DNA of 8,538 nucleotides, taken from assembly GCA_001803565.1 (NCBI GenBank), contig MHDQ01000075.1, forward strand, positions 1-8,538, written 5' to 3'. The position numbers and the translations under genes were made by a program. This document shows positions 1 to 8,538 of the stretch, in pieces. The DNA is from Nitrospinae bacterium RIFCSPLOWO2_12_FULL_45_22. GTDB lineage: Bacteria > 2-12-FULL-45-22. Below the pieces are notes generated by a model, which saw only the letters and a program-made list of their open reading frames with translations, did no database searches and was not told the origin of the DNA. How positions within the stretch are numbered: position 1 is the first letter of the stretch; each line of letters opens with the position of its first letter.

Positions 1-235
1 CTCCTCAATACTAATGATTTTATATCAAATTTTTACGTGAGTAAAGCAGATAGGCAGTTTTTATTATTATCCTTGGACGGGTAAGAACTTCGGCAAGTTC
101 CTGAAGCATGGGCTCAGAGATGACAACATGGAAATCGCCTTGTTCAAAGGATTTTCGTAACCTTGCAGGAAAGCCGAAAGGATTGAGTAAAGAAGAGACC
201 CAGATGTTGGTGTCAATAACAGCCTTAACGGCCAC
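1..235 (-). pseudogene. PIN-domain toxin (VapC-like, COG1569 type), apparently frameshifted and cut by window edge
   Basis: The frame opens with GTG (233-235) and reads AVIDTNIWVSSLLNP, the beta1 and first acidic site (Asp8) of PIN-domain ribonucleases. The EPMLQELAEVLTRPRI segment follows, with the second conserved acid Glu46. PIN toxins of this kind cleave RNA and are held inactive by a cognate antitoxin. Family members run to about 140 residues, but this frame stops at 20-22 after 71. In another frame the bases before the window edge read FDIKSLVLR, which fits the DI..L helix that normally follows RPRI. One extra base in the A5 run (30-34, minus strand) would join the two. I therefore infer a one-base frameshift, either a real mutation or a sequencing error. 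The two C-terminal acidic residues are not visible. The GTG overlaps the antitoxin gene by 11 nt, the usual coupled antitoxin-toxin order. Confidence 0.7.
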
Positions 236-464
236 GTTTTTCTTCTCTGACCTCTTTTATGGCATGGGAAATATCGGATTCTATCTCTTCAGAGGTGTAT
301 TGTGTAGCTTTTTTGTGTATCTTCTCTATAATGCGGTTAAATCGACTCTGCCATTCATCAAGATAGATTATCTTTATAGTAACTTTTTCATGTTCTTTTG
401 CCTCCACCTCTTGAAGAGGTTTAAAAACACCGTTTTCAAAAACAGCATCTATTATTTTAGACAT
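225..464 (-). CDS. DUF104 / AF2212-like antitoxin
   Basis: This 79-residue protein starts [20 protein letters not shown] and continues HEKVTIKI, the beta-hairpin signature of the DUF104 (AF2212-like) family. Members are commonly encoded directly before PIN-domain toxins and are regarded as their antitoxins. The C-terminal half (about residues 37-79: [17 protein letters not shown], then [15 protein letters not shown]) is charged and probably helical, as expected for an antitoxin tail that wraps around the toxin. The ATG at 462-464 has a strong Shine-Dalgarno AGGAGG at 475-480 with a 10-nt spacer. Its 3' end overlaps the PIN start by 11 nt, so toxin translation is probably coupled to it. Expected role is neutralising the toxin and perhaps autorepressing the operon; this is inferred from family and context. 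It looks intact although the toxin does not. Confidence 0.8.
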
Positions 465-1018: not shown

Positions 1019-1171
1019 GTATTCATTAATATGGAACCCACCAATGGTAGGTACGAGCCGCTTCTCGGCTATATTATTTTAGAGCAATCGCGCGCAGCTA
1101 TTGATATGGTTGGTCATCGTCTGGTCCAGGTAAAATATATGGATCTGAAGAAGGGAGTTATCTATTCATAA
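1019..1171 (+). pseudogene. C-terminal remnant resembling a clan AA (retropepsin-like) aspartic protease
   Basis: A plus-strand frame from ATG 1031 to TAA 1169-1171 encodes 46 residues containing GRYEPLLGYIILEQSRAAID and then MVGHRLVQVKYMDLK. The EPLLG..xLE......D....RLV pattern matches the final strand, helix and tail of bacterial retropepsin-like (clan AA) proteases, whose catalytic D-[TS]-G motif would lie about 80 residues earlier. That N-terminal part is absent: upstream sequence is the palindromic repeat, whose arm ends at 1017, exactly where plausible homology begins (codons 1019-1030 read VFIN in frame). There is no Shine-Dalgarno sequence. It is most likely a non-functional relict left when the region was rearranged. 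Its last 10 bases overlap the 3' end of the convergent dehydrogenase gene. The family call rests on a short match. Confidence 0.5.
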
Positions 1172-2139
1172 ATATCGGGATTGAGGAGGTTGGGGGGGCG
1201 TTTCCCTTCAAAAACTGCTTTGATGTTTTCTCCACACATAGTACCCATCCGGGTGCGGGTCTCCAGGGTGGCGCTGCCGATATGGGGAGTAATCACCACA
1301 TTAGGGAGCGCTATTAGCCCAGGAGCTAATTCTGGCTCCTTCTCGAATACATCTAATCCAGCCCCAGCCAGCAGGCCGTCTCTTAGCGCCTGGACCAGCG
1401 CCTTTTCATCTACACACTCCCCGCGGGCGGTATTGATGAGGAAGGCAGTCTTTTTCATCTGTCTCATCTCGTTTTCTCCGATAATTCCCCTGGTCTCGGG
1501 TGTCAGAGGGCAGTGGAGTGATACAAAGTCCGATTCCCTTAAAAGCTCGTCCAGGGAGGTGTAAGTGGCGTTAAGGCTTTGCTCAATCTGACATGGCAGC
1601 CGGGTGCGGTTGAGATAAAGGATCCGCATTTTGAATCCTGAGCCCCGCCGGGCTACGGCTTGGCCGATCCTCCCCATACCGATAATTCCGAAGGTCTTGC
1701 CGAAGATATCTGCCCCGAGGAACAATGTGGGGCTAAAGCCGCTCCATTTACCTTGTCGGCTGAAGGCATCAGCAGCAGGAATTTGGCGCGCCACGGCCAT
1801 CAGTACCGAAAAAGCCAGATCAGCCGTGGTCTCTGTCAAAACCCCTGGGGTATTGGTGGCGGGTATTCTCTGGGCGCTACAGGCCCTCAGGTCAATATTG
1901 TTAAACCCGACCGCGTAATTAGCCACTATCCTGAGCTGTGGCCCCGCGGCGTCAAGGATTTCTCCGTCTACCCGATGGGAAAGTTGTGGCAACAAGGCAT
2001 CAGCCCCTTTTACCTCCCGTAGAAACTCCTCCCGGCTAATAGGCCGCTCCTCAGCAAAGATGCGTAAGTGGACAAAGCTACCGAGATAGTCCAGGGCTGG
2101 CTGGCAAATACGGCGGGGGAGGTAAATGATTGGCTTCAT
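1162..2139 (-). CDS. D-isomer-specific 2-hydroxyacid dehydrogenase, glyoxylate reductase (GyaR) type
   Basis: This 325-residue cytoplasmic enzyme should reduce a 2-keto acid such as glyoxylate or hydroxypyruvate to the D-2-hydroxy acid with NAD(P)H. The substrate domain carries VANYAVGFNNIDL (72-84), close to the glyoxylate reductase signature. The Rossmann fold has GMGRIG (154-159), and the catalytic triad is complete: Arg239 in NTARGE, Glu268 in FEKEPE, His286 in ITPHIGSAT. Their spacings (29 and 18) equal those I recall for archaeal GyaR (R241/E270/H288). Length is normal for the family. The ATG overlaps the stop of the upstream anchored Ig-like gene by ATGA, with GAGGAAG 5 nt before it, so translation is coupled. 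The gene looks more GC-rich than its neighbours. Hydroxypyruvate or phosphoglycerate-type activity cannot be excluded, so no symbol is assigned. A link to the copper genes is not obvious. Confidence 0.88.
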   Translation of the reverse strand: MKPIIYLPRRICQPALDYLGSFVHLRIFAEERPISREEFLREVKGADALLPQLSHRVDGEILDAAGPQLRIVANYAVGFNNIDLRACSAQRIPATNTPGVLTETTADLAFSVLMAVARQIPAADAFSRQGKWSGFSPTLFLGADIFGKTFGIIGMGRIGQAVARRGSGFKMRILYLNRTRLPCQIEQSLNATYTSLDELLRESDFVSLHCPLTPETRGIIGENEMRQMKKTAFLINTARGECVDEKALVQALRDGLLAGAGLDVFEKEPELAPGLIALPNVVITPHIGSATLETRTRMGTMCGENIKAVFEGKRPPNLLNPDIYE

Positions 2140-2723
2140 CTTGTCTTCCTCGGGCGGATGCTAGCAGGTTTGAAGAGAAAAGGACTGGCTGTACCTACAA
2201 TAGTAACTACAGTAGCCAACAAGACTACTACCCTACCGAGCAACCGATACCAATATCCAATCCTCTCTTTGTCTATTGCCCCCTTTTTAAAAATACCAAC
2301 GATCTTTTCCACATCATCTATACCTGATTGGAAGGTTATAAGATGTTCCCCTTCCTGAGTGAATATATTCCTGGCTTCATAATAGCCTGCTACACCCTTT
2401 TGTTCAGAGGCGATCAAGGTCTTTTCTTTTCTGTCTGGGTACTTAATATTGACCTTGGCTTCTAAACCGCTCACATAAAAGCCGGTTTCGGCCAACTGTA
2501 CTTCAAAGACCAGCCTAATGGATTCTTTTATAAAAAGGGTTTGGGGATAGGACAAGAATTTTATCCGATAACCGTCACTCCGGACTTCCTGTTCCCATTG
2601 GACATCTTCTTGATATTCCCCTGCTTCTTCAGCCTCTACCACCAGACCACCATGATGGGCAAAAGATACCGAAGGTACCGATATAAGCACGATGAATAAT
2701 AAGGACAGAACAGTTTTTATCAA
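2136..2723 (-). CDS. Membrane-anchored periplasmic Ig-like protein (FixH/YtkA-like) with predicted N-terminal His-His
   Basis: This 195-residue protein has a signal peptide (1-22, MIKTVLSLLFIVLISVPSVSFA) with a good SFA|HH cleavage site, so the mature protein would begin HHGGLVVEAEEAGE. A beta-rich domain follows (about 52-135): RLVFEVQL, SGLEAKVNIKYPD, GYYEARNIFTQEGEHLITF, the pattern of YtkA/FixH-type domains. One transmembrane helix (about 161-183) and a basic tail (RPRKTR) place the domain in the periplasm. It resembles the second Ig-like protein at 5533-6129. The mature N-terminal histidines suggest copper or other metal binding, by analogy with YcnI and CopC; this is inference. The start codon is TTG (2721-2723) with only a weak AGG ahead of it, and an in-frame TAA a few codons upstream limits alternatives. 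It begins a two-gene unit with the dehydrogenase. Confidence 0.75.
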   Translation of the reverse strand: MIKTVLSLLFIVLISVPSVSFAHHGGLVVEAEEAGEYQEDVQWEQEVRSDGYRIKFLSYPQTLFIKESIRLVFEVQLAETGFYVSGLEAKVNIKYPDRKEKTLIASEQKGVAGYYEARNIFTQEGEHLITFQSGIDDVEKIVGIFKKGAIDKERIGYWYRLLGRVVVLLATVVTIVGTASPFLFKPASIRPRKTR

Positions 2724-2894: not shown

Positions 2895-3380
2895 TTAAAT
2901 ATTGGATAGGCTCAAGGTCTCTCCCAGGGCAACTATCACCATAACCAGCAGGAGATTTATCTTTGCCAGGGTCTTAAACTTTATCCAGGCCCTGTGTGAA
3001 TCATGAGGGGTAGCCTTACTCCTATCCCCTATAATAAGCGGTATACAGTCCTTCTGGATGAATATTCCGTTAATAACGATAATTATATACAGTATAATTT
3101 TAGCTAGCATAATCCAGCCATAGGGTTGAGGTAAAAATATAATGCCGGGATCAGACCAGAGTATCAGCCGGGAAAGGCCACTTATGAATAGCAATAGGAT
3201 GCCTATCTCCATAAGGTGGGATATGGCGGGCAAGTTCCCGGAAATAAGTGGTGGTAATGGGTTTCCAGGATTATTTTTCGCTTTTGTGGTTAAGACAGCG
3301 AACCATATATGGCCCCCACCGAAGATCATCAGGCCAATTATATGTAAGAGCATAAATATGAATTCCAGATAGGGAATCAT
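2895..3380 (-). CDS. CopD-like four-helix inner-membrane protein
   Basis: This 161-residue hydrophobic protein has four likely transmembrane segments (about 5-30, 53-75, 86-108 and 135-156). The stretch ISGLSRLILW (66-75), then PYGWIMLAKIILYIIIVING (86-105), matches the CopD-family pattern of a G..R helix, then YG..L.K and a helix ending in N. CopD proteins sit in the inner membrane and move copper across it, usually with a periplasmic CopC or YcnI partner. Potential ligands are His13, His24 (GGGHIWF) and His55. It is much shorter than classical CopD (roughly 300 residues) and covers only the conserved core. The ATG is 2 nt after the stop of the YcnI-like gene, so translation is surely coupled; B. 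subtilis likewise pairs ycnI with ycnJ (CopCD fusion). A heme-binding small membrane protein is the main alternative. Confidence 0.6.
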   Translation of the reverse strand: MIPYLEFIFMLLHIIGLMIFGGGHIWFAVLTTKAKNNPGNPLPPLISGNLPAISHLMEIGILLLFISGLSRLILWSDPGIIFLPQPYGWIMLAKIILYIIIVINGIFIQKDCIPLIIGDRSKATPHDSHRAWIKFKTLAKINLLLVMVIVALGETLSLSNI

Positions 3381-3382
3381 AA

Positions 3383-3964
3383 TTATTCGTATTCTCTGCG
3401 GGAAGTCTGGAGAATAGCAATAACCATAACTATTATCAATGATACAGTGACACCAATAGCGACAAAGCTAGCTATGGTAGCTACTTTTGCCTTACTCAGG
3501 GCCTCTTTTGCTGAGGCAGATTCCTTGCTATCCCCACCCTCTTTTACCAGGGTCTGAAAATTCCAGTTGCTCCTTTCACCGTCTTCATAGTCCTGATAGG
3601 CCGTCCACAGAAAGGAGCCGGTTTTTGCGGGCGTTTTCGCTATAAACTTAAACTCTTCAAAGGTCAAAGGCGGGATATTACCCCCGGACCATTTGATCTT
3701 CCGGACAAAGCCTGCAGTATCTCTTTCCGTAGAAAAGGACCATTTCTCTTTGCTTCCTATCGCCTCTACCTCATAGCCAGCCGGGATGACCACCTCGACT
3801 TTGGTAGTAGGTGATTCTACCTCAGTAGGGACATTTATACTGTACACACCCCATTTGTTGGGCTCTCCTTTTTGGGGAGAGATGTCTATATGGGCTTTAG
3901 CATATTCCGGGGTTATAAATATAATGATAAAGGCAATGCTGAGTAGCAGACAAACCCTGGTCAT
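3383..3964 (-). CDS. YcnI-like (DUF1775) copper-binding protein with C-terminal membrane anchor
   Basis: This 193-residue protein has a signal peptide ending YAKA|H, so the mature protein starts HIDISPQKGE. It follows the DUF1775/YcnI pattern throughout: WGVYSINVPTEVESPTTKVE (38-57), IPAGYEV, FVRKIKWSGG, PLTFEEFKFIAKTP (99-112) and TAYQDYEDGERSNW (121-134). B. subtilis YcnI binds Cu(II) through a monohistidine brace made by its N-terminal His with a Glu and a Trp contributing. The equivalents here are His25, Glu48 and Trp134, all present. A transmembrane helix (about 163-185) tethers the domain on the periplasmic side. The start has a strong AAGGAGG about 10 nt upstream, just after the stop of the Fe-S gene (16-nt gap). 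Its role is probably to bind copper and hand it to or from the CopD-like protein encoded next. This is the most secure copper marker in the window. Confidence 0.85.
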   Translation of the reverse strand: MTRVCLLLSIAFIIIFITPEYAKAHIDISPQKGEPNKWGVYSINVPTEVESPTTKVEVVIPAGYEVEAIGSKEKWSFSTERDTAGFVRKIKWSGGNIPPLTFEEFKFIAKTPAKTGSFLWTAYQDYEDGERSNWNFQTLVKEGGDSKESASAKEALSKAKVATIASFVAIGVTVSLIIVMVIAILQTSRREYE

Positions 3965-3971
3965 ATCCCTA

Positions 3972-3978
3972 ATTCCTC
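3972..3978 (-). promoter_or_regulatory. Strong Shine-Dalgarno (AAGGAGG) of the YcnI-like gene
   Basis: A near-complete Shine-Dalgarno sequence sits directly after the TGA of the Fe-S protein gene (3981-3983). It fixes the ATG at 3962-3964 as the start and implies high, independent re-initiation for the YcnI-like protein compared with its weakly led neighbours. Confidence 0.6.
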
Positions 3979-3980
3979 CT

Positions 3981-5522
3981 TCACATGGCGGTCCGCATCT
4001 CCATCGGCTGTCTCATCAGCCATAGACTAACGAAGGCGCACAAGAATAAAAAAATTAGCAGCAATATATGGCTCCTAAATGCCCGTCTCTGGTCAGCAAA
4101 GCTCTGCTGGGACATTATTCCAGCGATATAGGCAGCATAGCCATATCCTATGACCAGTAACAATGACTGAATATACCATATGACAGATAAAGAGATCAGT
4201 GGTTTTGGGCTCCAGGCCGCAGTGCCCAATAGGTCCCATTGCCAGCCAAAAGGGTCTGATATGAGCGGTATCAATTTTTGCCCTTCCTGTAATAGGTGTT
4301 GGCTATTGTGGGCCAGATGGTAGAATAGAGCCAGGGGCAAAATGGGATAAGTAAAATTGATAAAGACCTTTTTTAACGGAATATCTTCTTGTCGTAAAGA
4401 CCCCTTTATAATCCAGGAAAAGAGGAAGTAAATTAGCCCTGGAATTATAATTATTGCCGCCATAGCCAGGGTGAAGGAAGGGAGGTATCCCAGGTTTAAC
4501 TGGCTCCCTAACTTTGTTGAAATAGTCCGCCAGTAAGGGGTCATAGTCAAGCCATGGAACAGGGTCAGGCTGAGCATAACTAAAGATAGGATGGCTTCAT
4601 CGGTCTTGGGCTGGACAGCTTTAACCAGATCAGTAGCGAAGGGTCTTAGGTTGAAAGAGACATTATCTCTCGGGCAGGTCTTTATACATTCGGTACATAA
4701 TATACAATAGGTATTCGTCACCATATTACCCAGATATTCGAAGGTCGGACAACCATAACCGCTGTCATTACCCTTCAGGCAATCTTTAGTCTTGCAGGCC
4801 GCACAGATATTCTTATCTCTGGCCCTTAATTCGCTGGAGGCAAACATCGCATAGAGTCCACTTATCCTCCCAACCAGGCAGGCATAGCGGCAAAAGGATT
4901 TCCTCTCAAATATTATAGCCGGTAATATAGTTATAGAAAGCATTACTATACCCAGATAAGCCGTGGCCTTGGGGCTGAAAGTTACCCCATACCCTAATTC
5001 TAGCCAGGTAAGCAGGATAAAAAGGCCGATAGCCAGATAAATATTCCTGAGTCTCTTGGGCCAAGGCAAATTTAAACTAAAGATATCTTTTTTTACTTTC
5101 CAAAGGCCCAGCCTTTGCAACCAGCTAGCTATAGCATCCCAGGGACACATAAGACACCACAACTTCCCCATAAATACAATAGCAATGATAATCCCTGTCC
5201 ACCAGATAGTCCAGGTTAGAATCGGGGCTATATTCCTGGCTGGGTAGCTGGTGCCATATAAGCCCGCATAGATTATCAGGAGAAATAAGAATACCCCGGG
5301 GAGCTGAATCATGGTCTGGAAAGGTCTCTTATTTGCCAGGGACTTAATGAGGGTAATATTCAATAGGTCATACTTCGGGTAATTCTCTGTTGTTGTCCGC
5401 CCTTTGATAAAGATAATAAGTATAATACCAGACAGTAACCCTATAGCCGCCAAAGAGCATAGGAAGAGGTAATCAGGCATGCCCTGCATCGCTTCTTCTT
5501 CCATTTGCATCAGGTGATGCAT
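3981..5522 (-). CDS. Polytopic membrane [4Fe-4S] protein, NapH/NosR/CcoG-like
   Basis: This 513-residue protein has about ten membrane helices and a central cytoplasmic-type ferredoxin domain. The ferredoxin has two cysteine sets: C240-x2-C243-x4-C248-x9-C258-P and C273-x2-C276-x2-C279-x3-C283-P. In the membrane part are C123-LM-C126-P and C211-RYA-C215, echoing the paired Cys motifs of NapH/NosR proteins, although the second lacks the usual Pro. The C-terminal region has YHLAHNSQHL (401-410: His402, 405, 409) and SDPFGWQWD (422-430). Such proteins pass electrons across the membrane; CcoG reduces Cu(II) during cbb3 oxidase assembly. In this operon a cupric-reductase or electron-supply role is a reasonable inference. 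Both ends are Met-rich (MHHLMQMEEEAMQGM; MRQPMEMRTAM). The start is uncertain: ATG 5520-5522 has a weak AGG, while Met12 has GGAAGAAG ahead of it. The fold call is firm, the function is not. Confidence 0.8.
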   Translation of the reverse strand: MHHLMQMEEEAMQGMPDYLFLCSLAAIGLLSGIILIIFIKGRTTTENYPKYDLLNITLIKSLANKRPFQTMIQLPGVFLFLLIIYAGLYGTSYPARNIAPILTWTIWWTGIIIAIVFMGKLWCLMCPWDAIASWLQRLGLWKVKKDIFSLNLPWPKRLRNIYLAIGLFILLTWLELGYGVTFSPKATAYLGIVMLSITILPAIIFERKSFCRYACLVGRISGLYAMFASSELRARDKNICAACKTKDCLKGNDSGYGCPTFEYLGNMVTNTYCILCTECIKTCPRDNVSFNLRPFATDLVKAVQPKTDEAILSLVMLSLTLFHGLTMTPYWRTISTKLGSQLNLGYLPSFTLAMAAIIIIPGLIYFLFSWIIKGSLRQEDIPLKKVFINFTYPILPLALFYHLAHNSQHLLQEGQKLIPLISDPFGWQWDLLGTAAWSPKPLISLSVIWYIQSLLLVIGYGYAAYIAGIMSQQSFADQRRAFRSHILLLIFLFLCAFVSLWLMRQPMEMRTAM

Positions 5523-5532
5523 ATGCGCCTGG

Positions 5533-6129
5533 TTAATTGCTCGTCTCCTTATTACAAATTGCTAATCTCCCCTTCCGGAGAAAGGCCACTAAGGCTATAG
5601 CTACTACCAGAAAAACGCCTATCAGGCCCAGAAAGATCATGCTGGGGCCTTTTCCATTACCAATCTGAACAGCAGTATGAACTTTTTGCTCACTATCCCC
5701 AACCTGGAACTGGACCCCTATTTCGTACTTACCTCTTTTTGGCCAGATATGTTGCACTTCATAGAACCCCTTGCCAAATCGGTTTGCCGTGTATTGCCTT
5801 GTCTGATCCTTTTCCCCTGAAGGGTAGACCGAAATTACGACCCTGCTTTTGACTGGCTCCTTCGTTTTATAATCTTCTATATATACTATAATCTCCCCTA
5901 TCTCGCCCGGCTGTGGTACTTCGGGGAATGGTGCCAGCTTTACCAAAAAAACTCCGGCATAGATTTCCTTAAAGACCAGATTTTCTGTGGGCAAATGGGC
6001 CAGAGAATTTATAGGCAGGATAATTAAGATCAATATCAAGGCAAAACCACTGGCCATAGGGGATATGGAAGGGGGAAGGCCATTAGGAGGAGATTTAAAA
6101 TTCATACGATATATTGAACTTAAAGACAT
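5533..6129 (-). CDS. Membrane-anchored periplasmic Ig-like protein (FixH/YtkA-like) with predicted N-terminal His
   Basis: Counted from ATG 6127-6129 this is 198 residues. A hydrophobic segment (27-44, ending PINSLA) has a SLA|H cleavage site, giving a mature N-terminus HLPTENLVFKE. A beta-sandwich follows (about 78-142): GEIIVYIEDYKTKEPV, RVVISVYP, GKGFYEVQHIWPKRGKYEIG. The last part is typical of YtkA/FixH domains (GxYE...x.P..G.Y.I.V). A transmembrane helix (163-184) and RKGR follow, so the domain faces the periplasm. Candidate ligands are His45, His127 and His151. It lies 10 nt before the Fe-S protein gene, reproducing the FixG/FixH neighbourhood known from cbb3 oxidase assembly. It overlaps the barrel gene by 35 nt with this start, or 11 nt from ATG 6103-6105 (190 residues); neither has a clear Shine-Dalgarno sequence, so translational coupling is likely. 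Confidence 0.75.
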   Translation of the reverse strand: MSLSSIYRMNFKSPPNGLPPSISPMASGFALILILIILPINSLAHLPTENLVFKEIYAGVFLVKLAPFPEVPQPGEIGEIIVYIEDYKTKEPVKSRVVISVYPSGEKDQTRQYTANRFGKGFYEVQHIWPKRGKYEIGVQFQVGDSEQKVHTAVQIGNGKGPSMIFLGLIGVFLVVAIALVAFLRKGRLAICNKETSN

Positions 6130-7603
6130 CCCATTTGTCCCAACGGCCTACAAAATCATTAGAGTGTCCCCAGAAGGCATAATATTCTGCATTAAGTGAT
6201 ACGTAGTCACCCAGGACAAATTTTATACCGAGCCGGTTCTTTCCCTGGCCCTGGTTAAAATAATTATAATAGGTATTGTAAAGGGTGAGCCGGTCATCAA
6301 AATACTCAAAGGGATGGCTTATGTTCAGGACGACAAAGGTCTCATCTCGCTCCAGCGGCATCATGTCCGGTTGATCATATTTAAAGGCATGGATATTGGC
6401 AAAGATAGTCATCACAGTCCAGTCCTTATGGATATAGGTATTGAGGTAGAAGGCGAGGAAGTTGGTATTGATCCGGGTCACACCATCCCTCCCGGGCAAT
6501 AGATATCCACGGCGTAAAGGGTCTAGCTCTCCCCTGGTTGGGACATACAGGTTCTGGGTAAATAGGTTTTCCAGGCGAAAGTCCCAGCCCCTATCCAGCC
6601 ACCAGAAAGACCTGACCAGGCCAACCATATGCTGGTGCAGGCGGGTGAATTCTGCTTCCGGGGCCTGATTAATCCGAGGGGCCCGCTGAAATATAGTAGG
6701 AGTGTCATTCCAGTTATAGAAATAGCCATAAGAAAGCTCCCAGGAGCCCAGAGCCTTCCATTCTATCGGGGTAAGCCAATCCAGCAGAAAGGCTATCTCA
6801 GAATTAGCCGGGTTCTGAGGGGGTTTATCTAAGCGATAAGGCCGGTAGTCCTTGCTGGGATTATAAGGGAAAGGAGATTCTCCCATCCCCGGGACCAACC
6901 CCTGGCTCTCCTCAAAGTCTGGTATCCAGATGGTGCGAAAATTAAAGGTCCCTTTGGTCCATAAGGCATTGACCATCCAGGTAGGGATGCGTAAGAATTT
7001 ATAGTTATCCACGACCTCGGCCGGCCCTTGCCACTGGATGGTAGGGTTGATGATATCCACAACCCTGAAGTCCATCTTACCCAAGACTACCTGCTGTTTA
7101 CCGACCCGGAAGTACCAATTACCGGCAAAGATATCTGCATAGAGCTCCCGCAGTATCTGCTTGGTAGTGTAATAATATTCCTTCTCCAGGTCTCTTATCT
7201 GCCCACCACCCTTGGCCAGGCCACTCTTTGGTTCCCAATCATAGACGGCATCATAGCGATAATTAGTTACCCCACCCAGGCTAATCCTATTAGTAAGCCG
7301 ATACCGGAACTCTAGCTCCCCTAGCCACTCTATCTGGTCAAAGTCATTCTTACGCTGTCTATGGGTGGCGGTCGCGCCGGTCTTACCTTCGGCATACACC
7401 CAGGTCTGGTTCCTAAGTAAGCCCCTCAGCCTTAATTTTGGTATAGCCTGATGTATCGGGTCCAGGACATTTGCCATAGGGTTAAACATCCCTACCCTAC
7501 GCAAGACGTCCAGTGCTTCGGCCCTAACCGCGGCCGGCTTTCCATATATTCCTAATAAGTACACAACGAGAACTATCAAGTACAGAGATATTTTCCTGGA
7601 CAT
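6095..7603 (-). CDS. DUF1302-type outer-membrane beta-barrel protein
   Basis: This 502-residue protein has a signal peptide (1-28, ending VRA|EA). The rest consists of alternating amphipathic strands rich in Tyr, Trp and Phe, closing with a terminal strand FKFNISYEF that ends in Phe, as outer-membrane barrels do. The segment ELYADIFAGNWYFRVGKQQV (153-172), with LGKMDFRVVDIINPT next, and IPTWMVNALW, then FNFRTIWIPDFEESQG, follow the DUF1302 pattern (R.G.Q...G....+..D.INP). DUF1302 proteins typically sit beside a DUF1329/LolA-like gene, often with an RND-type exporter, and their substrate is unknown. Here the LolA-like gene ends 5 nt upstream and its stop region supplies the Shine-Dalgarno AAGGAG, 8 nt from the ATG. 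Its place at the head of a copper-type gene set suggests metal or metallophore passage, which is inference only. Confidence 0.8.
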   Translation of the reverse strand: MSRKISLYLIVLVVYLLGIYGKPAAVRAEALDVLRRVGMFNPMANVLDPIHQAIPKLRLRGLLRNQTWVYAEGKTGATATHRQRKNDFDQIEWLGELEFRYRLTNRISLGGVTNYRYDAVYDWEPKSGLAKGGGQIRDLEKEYYYTTKQILRELYADIFAGNWYFRVGKQQVVLGKMDFRVVDIINPTIQWQGPAEVVDNYKFLRIPTWMVNALWTKGTFNFRTIWIPDFEESQGLVPGMGESPFPYNPSKDYRPYRLDKPPQNPANSEIAFLLDWLTPIEWKALGSWELSYGYFYNWNDTPTIFQRAPRINQAPEAEFTRLHQHMVGLVRSFWWLDRGWDFRLENLFTQNLYVPTRGELDPLRRGYLLPGRDGVTRINTNFLAFYLNTYIHKDWTVMTIFANIHAFKYDQPDMMPLERDETFVVLNISHPFEYFDDRLTLYNTYYNYFNQGQGKNRLGIKFVLGDYVSLNAEYYAFWGHSNDFVGRWDKWDVFKFNISYEF

Positions 7604-7608
7604 TTAGT

Positions 7609-8538
7609 CTACTCCTTTACCTTTATGGTTATTCCCATTTTTTTCCAAAACTCACTTCTGACCGCTGGTTCTGAGGCAATATCGGAATAATCCTTTACTG
7701 GATGGAACTTTATCTCTTCCTTGAGAATCGGCGGAGTAGCTAAGGCCCCTAAACTAAATTCTTTTTCCGTATGGCGGTTGAATTTCCAAACAACTCGATG
7801 GATAGTGCGCCTCTTCTGGGGGAGCTTGATGACATTGGTCAATCTGGGAGCCCAAAAACCTCCCGGCTCTACCTGGTACCAGTCTTTATCAAAAAGCTTG
7901 AAAATCTCCCCTTTTCGATCAAACTGCTCTTCATGTATCTCGAGAAAATTATTCCGCTCCACCCAGTTAACCCGCTTGCTCAGGTAATATTTGGGGTCTT
8001 TATGGATGCTCTCTATCACCAGGCAATCATACCCCTTTAACTTATCTTCCCCTATAATACTATGATTCTCCTCCCAGGGGTCCCTGCTATCGTCATCATC
8101 GCGGGTAGTTATCATAGTGCCGTAATTATCCTGGCGATGATTAGGATTAAGCCGGCTTACCTTTCTCAAGCCCACGCTATAACTCCACTGGGCCTTCTCT
8201 TTGTAGTGACCATCGCCGTTTAGATAAAAGAGACCTAAGGATGTGTTACCTCTCGCCTCCGGTGGTGACAGGGTTATATAGACCTCTTTATACTCTATAT
8301 CGCCTGGTCTGATACCATTATAGGCTATTCGATCCAGGTAATTCTTGAGATAGAATTTCCTTTTCCCCCACACATCACCTACTCTTATGCCTCCCCAGCG
8401 GCTGGCATTGATACAGCTATGGATCTCGTCGCAATTAGCCCAGAGTTGATATTTGACCATATCTACATAGGTCATTACCTCCAGTCCGGTATAGCCATAT
8501 CTCTTTATCTCCTCCTTTTCAATATTAGTCAGTTCCTT
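7609..8538 (-). CDS. LolA-fold periplasmic protein (COG2834/DUF1329-like), 5' end outside window
   Basis: The frame is open to the window edge with no stop, so the N-terminus and any signal peptide are missing; 309 codons are visible and 288 follow the first in-frame ATG (8473-8475). That ATG has GGAGG only 2 nt away and is probably internal. Numbering from it, QWSYSVGLRKVSRL (96-109), GEDKLKGYDCLVIE (142-155), YYLSKRVNWVER (163-174), DRKGEIFKLF (186-195) and GGFWAPRLTNVI (205-216) follow the strand order of LolA-like lipoprotein-sorting proteins. In these, an aromatic plus VRRL strand and a G..CYVIE strand are recurrent. DUF1329 proteins are the usual partners of DUF1302 barrels. The likely role is a periplasmic carrier for a hydrophobic ligand or lipoprotein serving the barrel. 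The RDDDDSRDPW acidic stretch (125-134) is unusual and could bind cations. Confidence 0.75.
   Translation of the reverse strand, partial: KELTNIEKEEIKRYGYTGLEVMTYVDMVKYQLWANCDEIHSCINASRWGGIRVGDVWGKRKFYLKNYLDRIAYNGIRPGDIEYKEVYITLSPPEARGNTSLGLFYLNGDGHYKEKAQWSYSVGLRKVSRLNPNHRQDNYGTMITTRDDDDSRDPWEENHSIIGEDKLKGYDCLVIESIHKDPKYYLSKRVNWVERNNFLEIHEEQFDRKGEIFKLFDKDWYQVEPGGFWAPRLTNVIKLPQKRRTIHRVVWKFNRHTEKEFSLGALATPPILKEEIKFHPVKDYSDIASEPAVRSEFWKKMGITIKVKE

Follow-up and report, generated by a model that had tools for sequence, protein, structure and literature searches.

Gene organization of the locus

The window analysed here is the entire 8.5-kb contig C75 (MHDQ01000075.1, 8,538 nt) from the 85% complete, 3.67-Mb draft genome of Nitrospinae bacterium RIFCSPLOWO2_12_FULL_45_22, a member of a poorly sampled lineage. 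Six open reading frames (ORFs), all on the minus strand, extend from the contig end to position 2895. A preliminary description of this DNA had read them as one operon that could provide a single copper route across the cell envelope. All six ORFs are indeed present at the place described, in one direction and tightly spaced (gaps of 5, -35, 10, 16 and 2 nt, that is -35 to +16 nt). However, conserved synteny adds a seventh gene, encoding YtkA2, to the copper part, and the proposed end of the unit at 2895 is therefore not its true border. The unit seemed to stop there because a 171-nt repeat-bearing spacer, which has partial matches at seven further places in the genome, splits the CopD gene from the YtkA2 gene. 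At the other side, the contig end at 8538 cuts off the 5' end of the LolA gene and any genes preceding it, leaving the operon truncated upstream; a search for an overlapping contig at this end to recover upstream genes found none. The genes and features are as follows, with 'YtkA-like' denoting no more than resemblance for both YtkA1 and YtkA2:

7609 to 8538, minus strand: LolA_like/DUF1329 periplasmic protein (LolA), 5' end missing; module 1 (Pfam LolA_like and DUF1329)
6095 to 7603, minus strand: outer-membrane beta-barrel of the DUF1302 type, preceded by a signal peptide; module 1 (DUF1302 matches of homologues, porin-like AlphaFold2 model)
5533 to 6129, minus strand: YtkA1, exported and C-terminally anchored, predicted mature N-terminus HLPTEN; module 2 (weak Pfam YtkA match, hydropathy, cleavage motif)
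3981 to 5522, minus strand: NapH-long, candidate Cu(II) reductase in the membrane, with two sets of 4Fe-4S motifs; module 2
3383 to 3964, minus strand: YcnI (DUF1775), anchored at its C-terminus and predicted to bind Cu(II), ligands H25, E48 and W134; module 3
2895 to 3380, minus strand: half-size CopD-like membrane protein, in which four segments are hydrophobic; module 3
2724 to 2894, no strand: 171-nt spacer with pieces of dispersed repeats, between CopD and YtkA2 (partial genome matches)
2136 to 2723, minus strand: YtkA2, exported, C-terminally anchored beta-sandwich with N-terminal HHGG; module 3 (synteny, alignment, CrdA-like model)

The unit is thus a mosaic of three modules, namely LolA with the barrel, YtkA1 with NapH-long, and YcnI-CopD-YtkA2. 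We consider it fairly probable that the third module is a copper-acquisition cassette, with NapH-long as a candidate Cu(II) reductase and the LolA-barrel pair as a separate module. The family assignments of the preliminary description held to different degrees: LolA_like, DUF1329 and DUF1775 score above their Pfam cut-offs, whereas CopD, YtkA and Fer4_5 remain below theirs and the barrel is assigned through its homologues.

A conserved YcnI-CopD-YtkA2 cassette

YcnI matches Pfam DUF1775 with 55.7 bits (cut-off 25) and is homologous to the solved structure of Bacillus subtilis YcnI (7me6, E 1.2e-13), whose copper site uses His27 at the N-terminus together with Glu50 and lies next to Trp137 (PMC8424229). 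Residues H25, E48 and W134 of the window protein align with these three positions and are invariant in five sequences, and H25 is the first residue past the predicted AKA cleavage site. Judged by this alignment, YcnI keeps the residues of the monohistidine-brace copper site. Removal of the signal peptide is predicted to leave His as the first residue of all three exported proteins, YcnI (AKA|H), YtkA1 (SLA|H) and YtkA2 (SFA|HH). A His as mature N-terminal residue is a feature of histidine-brace copper proteins.

The neighbouring membrane protein comprises 161 residues with four hydrophobic segments, as compared to the about eight transmembrane helices usual for CopD, and matches Pfam CopD with 25.5 bits (E 1.8e-5; cut-off 32.1). 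CopD is also the best Pfam match of all four of its homologues, but a weak one (down to 2.2e-7). The protein aligns with the C-terminal half of both Escherichia coli YebZ and a YcnJ-type CopD, and its His13 falls on a transmembrane His that these two have in common and that may or may not correspond to the mutated H295 of YcnJ. On the basis of these alignments, we treat it as a putative divergent, half-size CopD relative.

The order YcnI-CopD-YtkA2 is kept in three other genomes. These are G001 (a contig of a 'Nitrospinota' metagenome-assembled genome and the only relative of the source genome from the same order in the comparison set), G363 (Candidatus Tectomicrobia) and a third genome (locus L086, SXND01000282.1); in G001 and G363, the homologue of window positions 2136-2723 directly follows YcnI and CopD. 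In G049, YcnI and CopD lie together and YtkA2 is on a different contig. Co-occurrence was counted over 386 genomes, that is the source genome and 385 others. YcnI homologues occur in six of the 385, with close ones (E < 1e-38) in G001, G049 and G363, and a profile search retrieved YtkA2 from exactly the same four of the 386 genomes as close YcnI, G049 included; since these genomes are related, this does not amount to four independent events. In L086, an ORF resembling a rhodanese-like protein by eye (6363-6704, minus strand) is divergent from the cassette. In the window, the end of the YtkA2 gene overlaps by 4 nt a gene for a D-2-hydroxyacid dehydrogenase of the glyoxylate-reductase-like type (1162-2139, minus strand), which may therefore be co-transcribed with the copper cassette; a 51% homologue in G001 is found in L047, near a LolA/barrel pair instead.

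The mature N-terminus of YtkA2, HHGGL, is invariant in five sequences. YtkA2 itself has no match to Pfam YtkA (PF13115), and one homologue matches weakly (E 0.059). Its AlphaFold2 model (predicted local distance difference test score, pLDDT, 78) consists of a beta-sandwich and a C-terminal helix, and its best structural match is Helicobacter pylori CrdA (9ll2; Z 14.0, root-mean-square deviation 2.5, 103 aligned of 108 residues). Copper-binding FetP, P19, FtrA and HftA follow at Z 10-12, and the Foldseek list also holds PmoD and CopC. As modelled, YtkA2 has the CrdA-type copper periplasmic fold, although a common fold does not establish a common function. It resembles CrdA, a copper-binding periplasmic protein, in fold, but is only 18% identical to it, is C-terminally anchored and is linked to YcnI-CopD. 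An analogue of FtrABCD, which comprises a P19-type protein and FtrD, was considered for the fold shared by FtrA/P19 and YtkA2 and was rejected, as both an FTR1 permease gene and a gene of the FtrB type are lacking; the FtrABCD paper ascribes no Fe-S role to FtrD.

Comparison with the B. subtilis system

The closest characterised parallel comes from B. subtilis, where YcnJ has the domain order CopC-CopD-YtkA and, together with YcnI, is proposed to import copper for heme-copper oxidases. Cu(II) passes between YcnI and the CopC domain, oxidase function in copper starvation depends on residues of both CopC and CopD, and the YtkA domain acts in support of cytochrome c oxidase (PMC12362106, PMC13344008). 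By analogy, YcnI-CopD-YtkA2 appears to be the separate-gene counterpart of YcnI and the CopD-YtkA part of YcnJ, without CopC. In both systems, a YcnI-type protein adjoins CopD membrane segments, after which comes a YtkA-type domain; both have a transmembrane His in CopD, here placed by alignment, and both are linked to the supply of heme-copper oxidases, here by prediction. In contrast to the ycnKJI system, the window has separate genes, a half-size CopD, no CopC domain and no YcnK, and differs further by the invariant HHGG on YtkA2, the outer-membrane envelope and the Fe-S protein encoded upstream. The source genome encodes subunits I and II of an aa3 cytochrome c oxidase with a SCO1/SenC gene upstream, and this oxidase is a plausible client of the cassette.

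Alternatively, the cassette could provide tolerance to copper or sequester it in the periplasm, instead of importing it for the assembly of the oxidase. This would fit the resemblance of YtkA2 to CrdA, a named copper-resistance determinant, and the original description of CopD in resistance operons. However, YcnI, CopD and YtkA of B. subtilis work together in acquisition (PMC12362106, PMC13344008), no CopA/CopB, multicopper oxidase or Cus genes are present in the window, and the genome contains the copper-requiring aa3 oxidase. We therefore regard a function in tolerance as unlikely.

NapH-long, a candidate partner of the copper cassette

NapH-long comprises 513 residues and scores slightly below the Pfam cut-off for Fer4_5 (21.1 versus 22 bits) and far below that of NapH TIGR02163 (21.4 versus 213 bits). 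Its two Cys sets, C240/243/248/258 and C273/276/279/283, predict two 4Fe-4S clusters and are invariant in eight sequences, all of which also have a C-terminal MxMR; a FYHLAHN..H segment is conserved as well. The N-terminus is rich in Met and His, starting MHHLMQMEEEAMQGM, and the long C-terminal transmembrane domain contains conserved His residues. N-terminal extensions of a metal-binding type are likewise found in its relatives, namely a YHS domain (L125; 34.7 bits, above cut-off), CKFCGMTDCPMH (L126) and a Met-rich stretch (L129). In L125 (2-2098), NapH-long with the N-terminal YHS fusion additionally contains a second, similar-looking Cys-containing stretch. The upstream partner YtkA1 matches Pfam YtkA with E 0.0028 and 18.7 bits (cut-off 25.9).

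The preliminary description had labelled this protein NapH/CcoG-like, and the CcoG half of the label does not fit its domain content. NapH-long resembles the CcoG/FixG systems (ccoGHIS; YccM) in that the gene for a membrane Fe-S protein is accompanied by genes for copper proteins and for a YtkA/FixH-like partner. It was nevertheless rejected as CcoG: there is no Pfam match to the Ig-like FixG_C domain, the C-terminus instead contains a long domain with transmembrane segments, CcoI and CcoS genes are not adjacent, and its closest relatives occur in molybdoenzyme clusters. Homologues of the YccM type also lack the C-terminal Ig-like domain.

The seven closest relatives, 38-46% identical, lie in clusters of NapA-like molybdoenzyme, NapG and NapH genes wherever the contig shows context. 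In L128, BLAST to YtkA1 indicates that a NapH carries a fused YtkA-like domain; in L129 and L017, inspection by eye shows YtkA-like stretches after NapH. The NapH genes with a C-terminal YtkA-like periplasmic domain (L128, 3851-5371; L129, 5745-7355) belong to NapA-like clusters with several NapG- and NapH-type genes. The window shares with such NapGH modules of NapA-like molybdoenzymes the type of NapH and the fused or nearby YtkA-like domain, but has neither a neighbouring NapA-like gene nor NapG. A scan of genome contigs with NapH-long yielded no confirmed relative, a sequence search of solved structures returned nothing for this protein, and its matches on plasmids stand in varied contexts without copper genes.

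These relationships raise the possibility that YtkA1 and NapH-long form an electron-transfer module for another enzyme, e.g. a molybdoenzyme encoded elsewhere in the genome, and lie beside the cassette by chance. The company kept by the relatives and the lack of linkage of NapH-long to YcnI elsewhere speak for this explanation, which we take seriously while considering it the less probable outcome. Against it, a search in which two control genomes matched strongly did not detect the NapA-like enzyme of these clusters in the source genome or in G001; moreover, NapH-long lies 16 nt from YcnI in one run of genes, and relatives carry the metal-binding-type N-termini. NapH-long thus plausibly serves the adjoining copper genes, most simply as Cu(II) reductase, although this is the weakest step of the mechanism. 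The bolder proposal that it represents a new type of cupric reductase, recruited from molybdoenzyme modules and reducing Cu(II) presented by YcnI/YtkA for import by half-size CopD, strikes us as somewhat unlikely.

The LolA-barrel pair as a probable separate module

LolA scores above the cut-offs for both Pfam LolA_like (70 versus 30 bits) and DUF1329 (24.9 versus 23.1 bits); intact homologues in G001 have 354-367 residues. The barrel protein has no direct Pfam DUF1302 match, and seven of the 11 sequences aligned with it do match (best 5.6e-22). Its AlphaFold2 model (pLDDT 69) retrieves porins at E 1e-12 to 1e-9, and a sequence search of solved structures returned nothing. The model suggests that it is a transmembrane beta-barrel, DUF1302-like through its homologues.

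In the trans-envelope route suggested by the preliminary description, copper or a ligand for it could pass via the barrel and the LolA-type protein through the outer membrane and periplasm to NapH, YcnI and CopD. The close spacing of all six genes favours this idea. However, the outcome that the preliminary description had itself named as refuting was observed: neither a DUF1302 nor a LolA gene occurs in any of the other four loci that carry the copper genes. The pair recurs without copper genes: the source genome has LolA_like matches at 17 places, spread over about a dozen contigs, and barrel homologues at five, two tandem pairs lie in L046, the pair in G001 adjoins HGD-D (2-hydroxyglutaryl-CoA dehydratase-type) genes, and MMPL pumps accompany it in L049, L053 and L054. 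Because the pair is missing from the other copper loci and recurs without copper genes, it is proximity alone that ties it to copper. In addition, the tested DUF1302/DUF1329 system, AmeABCD of Castellaniella defragrans, was found to provide monoterpene tolerance (PMC6394551). A single trans-envelope copper route is hence very improbable. AmeABCD (DUF1302, DUF1329, AmeC and an HAE3 RND pump) shares with the window the combination of a DUF1302 barrel with a DUF1329/LolA-type periplasmic protein; unlike in AmeABCD, neither AmeC nor an RND or MMPL pump is seen in the window, whose contig ends inside LolA. The well-supported part of the earlier proposal is copper handling as such, to which the YcnI ligands, the synteny, the YtkA2 fold and the B. 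subtilis parallel all point; a role in it for the barrel and LolA lacks support.

Other features of the window

No named Rfam families were found in the window, and promoter- and terminator-like sites are about as numerous as expected by chance. At its far end, a gene for an AF2212-like antitoxin (225-464, minus strand) is followed by a short PIN-domain ORF of 71 residues (20-235, minus strand), an arrangement corresponding to a VapBC-type pair, which is possibly broken or truncated.

A model for copper acquisition

In the copper-acquisition reading that we favour, inner-membrane-anchored YcnI would bind periplasmic Cu(II) via its N-terminal His and Glu48, with Trp134 nearby, a site assigned by homology, and would pass copper to the half-size CopD for transport, with the transmembrane His placed by alignment. 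YtkA2, with its HHGG terminus and CrdA-like fold, may receive or present periplasmic copper, either as a substitute for CopC, or to help build the copper sites of the aa3 oxidase, or both. Directly upstream, YtkA1 and NapH-long would most likely channel electrons through two 4Fe-4S clusters to reduce Cu(II) to Cu(I) for import. The LolA-DUF1302 pair, presumably co-transcribed but outside the copper route, would most likely move a hydrophobic molecule across the outer membrane.

Several points weigh against this reading. Copper binding, transport and reduction by the operon proteins are predictions from sequence, models and analogy. The YtkA2 region around HHGG is modelled at low confidence (residues 17-40, pLDDT < 50), so that copper binding there is inferred. 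The CopD-like protein falls short of its Pfam threshold and contains half as many transmembrane helices as is usual. NapH-long stands beside YcnI in no other genome examined and, given that its relatives reside in molybdoenzyme clusters, its placement next to the copper genes could be incidental; at a genome completeness of 85%, failure to detect a NapA-like enzyme is no proof of its absence.

To our knowledge, copper acquisition in Tectomicrobia/Nitrospinota-type lineages seems little studied. The site of Cu(II) reduction in CopD-dependent import is unknown according to the authors of the B. subtilis work (PMC12362106), and the gene for an Fe-S membrane protein located 16 nt upstream of YcnI-CopD names a testable candidate for this step. 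The separate-gene cassette further suggests that CopD and YtkA work alongside YcnI as units of their own, with no need of CopC, and that a half-size CopD may be enough.

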